Source of the DNA: Actinomycetota bacterium
GTDB lineage: Bacteria; Actinomycetota; Actinomycetes; Nanopelagicales; Nanopelagicaceae
Direction: 5' to 3'
Length of the DNA: 48,170 nucleotides
Assembly: GCA_947463725.1 (NCBI GenBank)
Contig: CANHRM010000006.1
Coordinates: forward strand, 1-48,170
Numbering within the stretch: position 1 is the stretch's first letter; the number at the start of each line of letters is the position of its first letter. Under the pieces are notes generated by a model that had not been told where the DNA came from, made no database searches, and worked only from the letters and a program-made list of their open reading frames with translations. The position numbers were made by a program, and so were the translations under genes. This document shows positions 30,752-32,079 of this stretch, one piece after another.

Positions 30752-31627
30752 TTAGACCCCGACTGCCTGCGTAATTTCCTCACATGCGCGCTGTAAATCA
30801 GTGGTTACGGTGACTTCGCTACATTGTTTTGGATTCCAGCCCGGCCCACCCAGAATTATTTTGGGAGCAGGGCGGACGGAAGGTAATTCTTCGAAGAATC
30901 GCGGGTCACCATTTTCGGATAACTGTGCCCACAGAAAAAGTGCTGGTGGTGCTGACTTATTAATGATTCCGCATAGCGCAGATAGCGGGGTTCGAGCACC
31001 TAAGAAATTACTGGAAATATCGCGTTCGGCTAAAGCTGCAGCCAGTGCATGTAGCGCTAGTGAATGAAGTTCTTCGCCCACGCATGCAAGTAGAACTGGT
31101 CGTGCATTTACAGCTTCGAATTCTTCAGGAACTGATTCGCGTAGAACTGATTTTATTAATTCAGTCAATAAATGTTCGACCTCAATGCCTTCGCCAGTTT
31201 TTTCCCAACTATTTCCGACATTTATTAGGACCGGCACGATTACGTTCTGCCAGCAGTGAATTACGCCATTTTTCATCAATTCTTGGCGCAGCGCTTGTAG
31301 AACAAATTCGCGATCTAGTGATTCAGCTGCGCGACAAATGGCGGCAACTAATTCTTCAGCAACAACGATTTCGGTTACTAACTCTGGTATTGAAATCTCA
31401 CCTTGATGCGCTTTTGCTCTTTGTGCAGCATCACTTGGCGCTACACCAGTTGTAATCAACCGACGCATCATGATTAATCTGGCGACATCTGCGCGCGAGT
31501 ATCGGCGATGGCTACCTTCGACATGTTCGGTTGGCCCTAAGCCATATCGACGATCCCAGGTCCGCAAAGTTGCCGGCGCTACGCCAATTTGGCGGGCTAA
31601 GGCAGCAACGGTCAGGGGTTGATCCAT
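30752..31627 (-). CDS. MerR-family regulator with B12-binding domain (CarH/LitR-like)
   Basis: 291-residue regulator. N-terminal MerR winged helix, residues 5-70 (TVAALARQIGVAPATLRTWD, GSHRRYSRADVARL). Middle four-helix region, about 85-165, carries W141, nine residues, then E151-H152, which is the Wx9EH cap motif of CarH. C-terminal Rossmann-like part has E186-L-H188 matching ExHxxG for the lower cobalt ligand (last Gly is Ala), FLGARTPLSAL and ILGGPGW. CarH/LitR proteins bind adenosylcobalamin and release DNA in light; that role here is inference. I start at ATG 31627; the TTG at 31720 would place the start inside the dyad and adds an atypical tail. Divergent from whiB3. Confidence 0.85.
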   Translation of the reverse strand: MDQPLTVAALARQIGVAPATLRTWDRRYGLGPTEHVEGSHRRYSRADVARLIMMRRLITTGVAPSDAAQRAKAHQGEISIPELVTEIVVAEELVAAICRAAESLDREFVLQALRQELMKNGVIHCWQNVIVPVLINVGNSWEKTGEGIEVEHLLTELIKSVLRESVPEEFEAVNARPVLLACVGEELHSLALHALAAALAERDISSNFLGARTPLSALCGIINKSAPPALFLWAQLSENGDPRFFEELPSVRPAPKIILGGPGWNPKQCSEVTVTTDLQRACEEITQAVGV

Positions 31628-31712
31628 GACCCAATCTTGGGGGTTAGGTGAGATTCGTGCCACCCGAGCACGCTCAATTTGCTGCCAAATCCAGAAAGGG
31701 GGTATTCGATAC

Positions 31713-31745
31713 TTGAACAACCTATGAAGCGGTTGTATGGTTCAA
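31713..31745 (+). promoter_or_regulatory. whiB3 promoter with embedded dyad operator
   Basis: TTGAAC (31713-31718), 17 bases, TATGGT (31736-31741) makes a good sigma-70-type promoter facing whiB3. A perfect inverted repeat ACAACC-N8-GGTTGT (31717-31736) fills the spacer, and outer arms TTGAAC and GTTCAA (31740-31745) are also inverted. On the minus strand the outer arm gives TTGAAC with TAGGTT 15 bases later, a weaker promoter facing the MerR gene. Position suggests the adjacent MerR protein binds here. Confidence 0.6.
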
Positions 31746-31776
31746 CTCAGTAGAAACAAGTACACAAGGGGTCCAA

Positions 31777-32079
31777 ATGAGCGAAGTATCTAGACTTCCA
31801 AAACCAGTGGTTGAAAACTGGGATTGGCAGCAAGATGGTTCTTGCCGTGATTTGCCCAGTGAGATGTTCTTTCATCCAGATGGCGAGCGCGGCCCACGTC
31901 GACGCAATCGCGAAAATGTTGCCAAAGCTGTTTGCAATACCTGCCCAGTTCTTGAGGCTTGTCGCAAACATGCACTCGCCGTTCAAGAACCTTATGGGAT
32001 CTGGGGCGGTCTCTCTGAAGATGATCGCGTCGCAATTCTAGAACGTGTCGGTGCACTTCCACTTTCGACAGCTAGCTAA
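31777..32079 (+). CDS. whiB3: WhiB3/WhiD-type iron-sulfur transcription regulator
   Basis: 100-residue Wbl protein expected to carry a 4Fe-4S cluster and act with the principal sigma factor. Four cysteines: one in GSCRDLP (about residue 23) and three in CNTCPVLEAC. It also has FFHPDGERG, typical of WhiB3/WhiD, the turn PYGIWGGLSEDDR, and the SRLPxP...WDWQ N-terminus of Streptomyces WhiD. Neighbourhood with groEL and guaB agrees with mycobacterial whiB3. The C-terminus is short and lacks a long basic tail. AAGGGG lies five bases before the ATG. Likely regulated by the dyad promoter upstream; ended by a strong terminator. Confidence 0.92.
   Translation: MSEVSRLPKPVVENWDWQQDGSCRDLPSEMFFHPDGERGPRRRNRENVAKAVCNTCPVLEACRKHALAVQEPYGIWGGLSEDDRVAILERVGALPLSTAS

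Follow-up and report, generated by a model that had tools for sequence, protein, structure and literature searches.

How is whiB3 controlled where it lies back to back with a MerR-family gene? We addressed this question in a 48,170-nucleotide stretch of DNA from a member of the Nanopelagicaceae (the window). The merR gene, which encodes P0001, and whiB3, which encodes P0002, start on opposite strands (31627, minus; 31777, plus), and the gap of 149 bp between them holds both a dyad and a promoter (Table 1). P0002 is identified as WhiB3 by its WhiB fold, its four conserved cysteines, its closest relative (the top match among solved structures is WhiB3 of Mycobacterium tuberculosis, E = 2e-32), and the position of its gene, which adjoins groEL and groES as the WhiB3/WhiD orthologs of other actinobacteria do. 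CIRCE- or HspR-type sites for the groEL neighbor were considered and set aside, as no match was seen by eye.

The genus includes many small genomes (0.6 to 1.8 Mb), and its named relatives are the acI freshwater actinobacteria (Candidatus Planktophila, Nanopelagicaceae). Throughout the genus, merR and whiB3 are neighbors wherever the contigs permit. One genome from the same family, which is 99% complete and consists of a single contig of 1.2 Mb, contains neither gene (a joint absence). Two other genomes each contain two divergent merR-whiB3 pairs (loci L174 and L175 in one, L199 and L200 in the other), which looks like a duplication of the module; in L174 and L199, TGAACAA repeats are spaced 22 bp.

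As explained below, we think that P0001 is probably a divergent, adenosylcobalamin (AdoCbl)-dependent repressor of the CarH family and that it blocks whiB3 through direct repeats.

Table 1. Coordinates of genes and sites at the merR-whiB3 locus of the window
Feature	Position	Strand	Remark
merR gene (P0001)	30752-31627	-	291 amino acids; CarH-like domains; divergent from whiB3
CarH-type 11-bp repeat TACTTGAACAA	31710-31720	+	Fits nAnnTnnACAn perfectly; covers the -35 box
-35 box TTGAAC of whiB3 promoter	31713-31718	+	Invariant in 94 regions
Dyad ACAACC-N8-GGTTGT	31717-31736		Sequence conserved, symmetry not
Degenerate second 11-bp repeat CCTATGAAGCG	31721-31731	+	In the spacer; register T kept, ACA not (departs from TnnACA)
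Possible third repeat (weak)	31732-31742	+	Covers the -10 box; matches at the register T alone
-10 box TATGGT	31736-31741	+	17 bp after TTGAAC
Outer right arm GTTCAA	31740-31745	-	Supposed opposing -35 box; incidental
Probable ribosome-binding site AAGGGG of whiB3	31766-31771	+	From sequence and inference; window species leadered
whiB3 ortholog (P0002)	31777-32079	+	100 amino acids; four conserved Cys

A conserved promoter with candidate direct repeats at its -35 box

We extracted 95 distinct merR-whiB3 intergenic regions from acI and close kin and scored 94 of them; the 95th is cut off within the site by the end of its contig. All 94 retain the block TTGAACAAC[CT]TATGnnnCG[GA]TTGTAnnnT with few changes, and at most positions the information content is near 2 bits per base. 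TAnnnT follows TTGAAC at a spacing of 17 bp in 91 of the 94 regions, and the remaining three look displaced by a single base. Exactly 6 nt separate the last T of the -10 box from the start codon of whiB3 in 54 regions; the distance is 7 nt in one region and 23 to 48 nt in the rest, with none at 8 to 22 nt (a region that lacks a whiB3 start was omitted). TAnnnT at about 10 to 12 bp ahead of the start codon is a known mark of leaderless genes in the Actinobacteria (PMC3160421), so the 54 regions with the 6-nt distance should produce leaderless whiB3 mRNAs, and the spacing pins the position of the promoter. From this comparison, the stretch, about 27 bases long, is a real and deeply conserved whiB3 promoter of the sigma-A type (-35 TTGAAC, 17-bp spacer, -10 TAnnnT). 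A generic consensus scan, which was tuned to TTGACA/TATAAT, did not call the whiB3 promoter and found nothing. In the window, transcription of whiB3 is predicted to start at about 31747 to 31749.

The conservation of the spacer far exceeds the needs of a promoter: the information is near 2 bits at AACAAC, T-TG, and CG-TTG. In the literature, CarH operators consist of 11-bp repeats in tandem, nAnnTnnACAn, one of which lies over the -35 box (PMC9304148, PMC8156234). The window has one perfect repeat in this position and one degenerate repeat after it, and clear pairs at 11 bp are found in some other families. In 56 of the 94 acI regions, a second same-strand unit of two repeats, TGAACAAnnTnTGnnnCG, lies upstream, always at an offset of 26 or 27 bp; it is missing from the window and its own clade, so that the window has just the one perfect repeat and the degenerate one. 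We also examined 37 merR-whiB3 loci from outside the genus. TGNACA is enriched at these loci (41 occurrences versus 14.6 expected and a shuffle maximum of 24), and pairs of TGNACA lie 11 bp apart in four cases and 22 bp apart in two, with 0.03 expected of each. One of the 11-bp pairs is TGCACAACTTT-TGAACAAGTTC, in L181.

Judging by exact matches, the direct-repeat unit occurs in the genus essentially only at the merR-whiB3 locus, single strays aside. One such stray, an exact copy of the unit (TGAACAACNTNTGRNNCG), lies elsewhere in the window's genome (G000:C4:71039-71056). We also considered a regulon, as the dyad pattern has a recurring second match ([GC]ACAACCTATGTCKCWGTTGT), but this seems to be a coding artifact: the match falls inside a coding ORF, where the codons read TTYVSVV (checked in one genome, L080, 3394-3804). 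A looser dyad pattern was found near the rate of chance, with similar counts in real and control sequences.

Beyond the genus, the site tracks the merR-whiB3 gene pair, as judged from sequence comparison. The promoter motif was found (p <= 0.03 versus Markov shuffles) in 29 of the 37 loci from other genera and families in which whiB3 has a CarH-like merR neighbor, and was not significant in the other 8, versus none of 20 whiB3 loci without such a neighbor; the shared ancestry of these genomes means that the loci cannot be counted as independent cases. The motif was also not found at the merR loci that we fetched beside groEL without whiB3. These results agree with the first-pass annotation, which had linked the site to the adjacent B12-type MerR gene; the protein encoded there is the likeliest reader of the site. 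In one family (f9; L205, L206, L207, L209, and L211), a CarH-like merR lies beside groEL with no match to whiB3 between them. Since merR persists there without whiB3, the regulator must serve another use in that family.

On the merR side of the gap (about 31640 to 31680 in the window), a second conserved block, TTTCAAGTGGTGAGTTgggCCACTTCACGCCACGAT on the minus strand, is present in L007-L033 and from L095 onward. This block is noncoding (its in-frame stops differ between species), differs in the window's own clade, and may represent either a further operator or the promoter of merR. Consensus folding of the merR leader and of this block identified no conserved RNA hairpin. An N-terminal extension of merR was considered as an explanation for the conservation near its start and rejected by eye: the frame is broken by stops in many species. 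Also near the merR side, the loci with long intergenic regions (L026-L031) share the motif AATGTCCGA[AT]TTT on the minus strand of the gap.

The CarH-like protein and its possible signal

P0001 has the domain order of CarH (MerR helix-turn-helix, B12-binding_2, and B12-binding, although the last scores under the Pfam cutoff, at 22.6 of 32.1 bits), and CarH is its best match by both sequence and structure, which places it in the CarH fold. It is not a CarH equivalog as defined by NCBIfam: it scores just 98.3 of 400 bits, far under the cutoff. The AdoCbl contacts W141, E151, H152, and H188, which are equivalent to Trp131, Glu141-His142, and His177 of CarH, are invariant across 98 of 98 homologs. 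A gene for cob(I)alamin adenosyltransferase is present in 20 of 26 genomes, including the window's.

With CarH and the class I LitR proteins of Thermus, Bacillus megaterium, and Myxococcus, P0001 shares the MerR DNA-binding domain and the two-part cobalamin domain, and the candidate operator resembles theirs, in which TnnACA repeats of 11 bp follow one another on the same strand and one of them covers the -35 box (PMC9304148, PMC8156234). Those proteins target carotenoid genes, whereas the target here would be whiB3. The window also differs from those systems in having just one perfect repeat, and P0001 differs from those proteins in two features of the light response. First, the position of His132 of CarH, which is the upper ligand in the light state, is occupied by E, A, Q, or K in all 98 homologs and never by histidine. 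Second, the light signature consists of GxxW, EH, GxxH, and GxxxP (PMC11796333); P0001 contains GxxW, EH, and GxxxP, but its GxxH reads GxxxH.

We propose that an AdoCbl-loaded, CarH-like oligomer would sit on the repeats over the -35 box and spacer and block RNA polymerase at whiB3. Upon loss of the adenosyl group, due to light or low AdoCbl, the protein would be released and whiB3 would be turned on. Known CarH members with this operator design are repressors (PMC9304148), which suggests the sign of the regulation.

In CarH, a tetramer binds DNA in the dark and light sets it free. Because His132 is absent and one motif of the light signature is out of register, release of P0001 by light is uncertain. 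It is possible, if rather less likely, that the same protein acts at the same operator but responds to the supply of AdoCbl (or to redox) instead of light, so that the apo-protein would leave and whiB3 would be expressed when B12 is scarce. The H132A variant of CarH remains mostly tetrameric in the light (PMC10442372), which is consistent with a signal other than light, as are the two departures in P0001. However, the Trp and Glu residues that contact the adenosyl group do not vary, and CtMerR (8JBS, PMC11796333), a CarH-like cobalamin protein of the MerR family that is a PDB match of P0001 (8jbs), has arginine at the His132 position and still falls apart in the light. CtMerR, unlike P0001, retains the full light signature.

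Other readings of the site

Alternatively, the reader of the block could be WhiB3, or a general factor together with sigma-A, in which case whiB3 would be autoregulated and the adjacency of merR would be mere synteny. WhiB proteins act with sigma-A at the -35 box, which the block overlaps, and the downstream gene is always whiB3. We consider this unlikely: the motif is missing from the 20 whiB3 loci that lack a merR neighbor, and the unit repeats at 11 bp, like CarH sites. It is less likely still that the MerR-like protein uses the repeats to activate whiB3 rather than to repress it. The -35 box differs from TTGACA, and the upstream unit, where present, would suit an activator, but the sole universal unit covers the -35 box and the spacer, where binding should block the polymerase. 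Also, the window's clade has no upstream unit, and the known CarH members with this design repress (PMC9304148).

The first-pass annotation had interpreted the site as an inverted-repeat MerR operator that lies in the spacer of a well-spaced promoter, with opposing -35 boxes forming two overlapping, face-to-face promoters that would act as a toggle. The letters had been placed correctly (the inner arms ACAACC and GGTTGT are at 31717-31722 and 31731-31736, and the outer arms are as in Table 1), and there is a real promoter with a candidate operator on its -35 box and spacer, but the inverted repeat was not borne out. The dyad by itself is not special, as the window contains 15 perfect 6-bp inverted repeats with 8-nt gaps. 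Conservation of the dyad in relatives had been named beforehand as one test, and the symmetry is perfect in only 57 of 94 regions, with no compensatory pair: C changes to T at 31722 in 24 regions and G changes to A at 31732 in 21, and the partner base never changes alongside. The two arms vary independently, and the right inner arm is missing from most related families. What repeats is a same-strand, direct unit, at 11 bp within units and 26 or 27 bp between them. On our preferred reading, with a CarH-like repressor on direct repeats, the dyad is formed by the tails of two same-strand repeats and was read as a palindrome.

Classical MerR activators (of the MerR and SoxR type) do share the helix-turn-helix with P0001, and here too the letters between the -35 and -10 boxes can be read as an inverted repeat. 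However, their spacers are 19 to 20 bp, and the ordinary 17-bp spacer of the whiB3 promoter, along with direct repeats and symmetry that is not maintained, does not fit the untwisting of a MerR-type spacer. As for the opposing promoter, GTTCAA is present in just 3 of the 94 regions, its spacer to the nearest TAnnnT on the minus strand is 15 bp, and no sigma-A-type merR promoter that is conserved across species was recognized in the intergenic regions. Thus, although the letters of the toggle do occur in the window, the lost symmetry, the rare outer arm, the two spacers, and the missing right arm make it very improbable.

Implications for WhiB3

More broadly, and more tentatively, a divergent CarH-like cobalamin protein that lacks the canonical His132 may directly control whiB3 via direct-repeat operators in many families of actinobacteria. 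In a literature search with partial coverage, we found no paper that joins CarH or LitR with WhiB genes, which does not prove priority. The candidate operator would be an unusually small one of the CarH type, and it could be tested in vitro.

Actinobacteria rely on WhiB proteins as central Fe-S regulators. If our proposal is correct, the gene for a WhiB redox regulator would be responsive to B12 or light, and cobalamin photoreception would extend from pigment genes to a regulator of redox and stress. Through a conserved link between an AdoCbl-dependent repressor and whiB3 at a single locus, a redox regulator would come under the influence of vitamin status or light.
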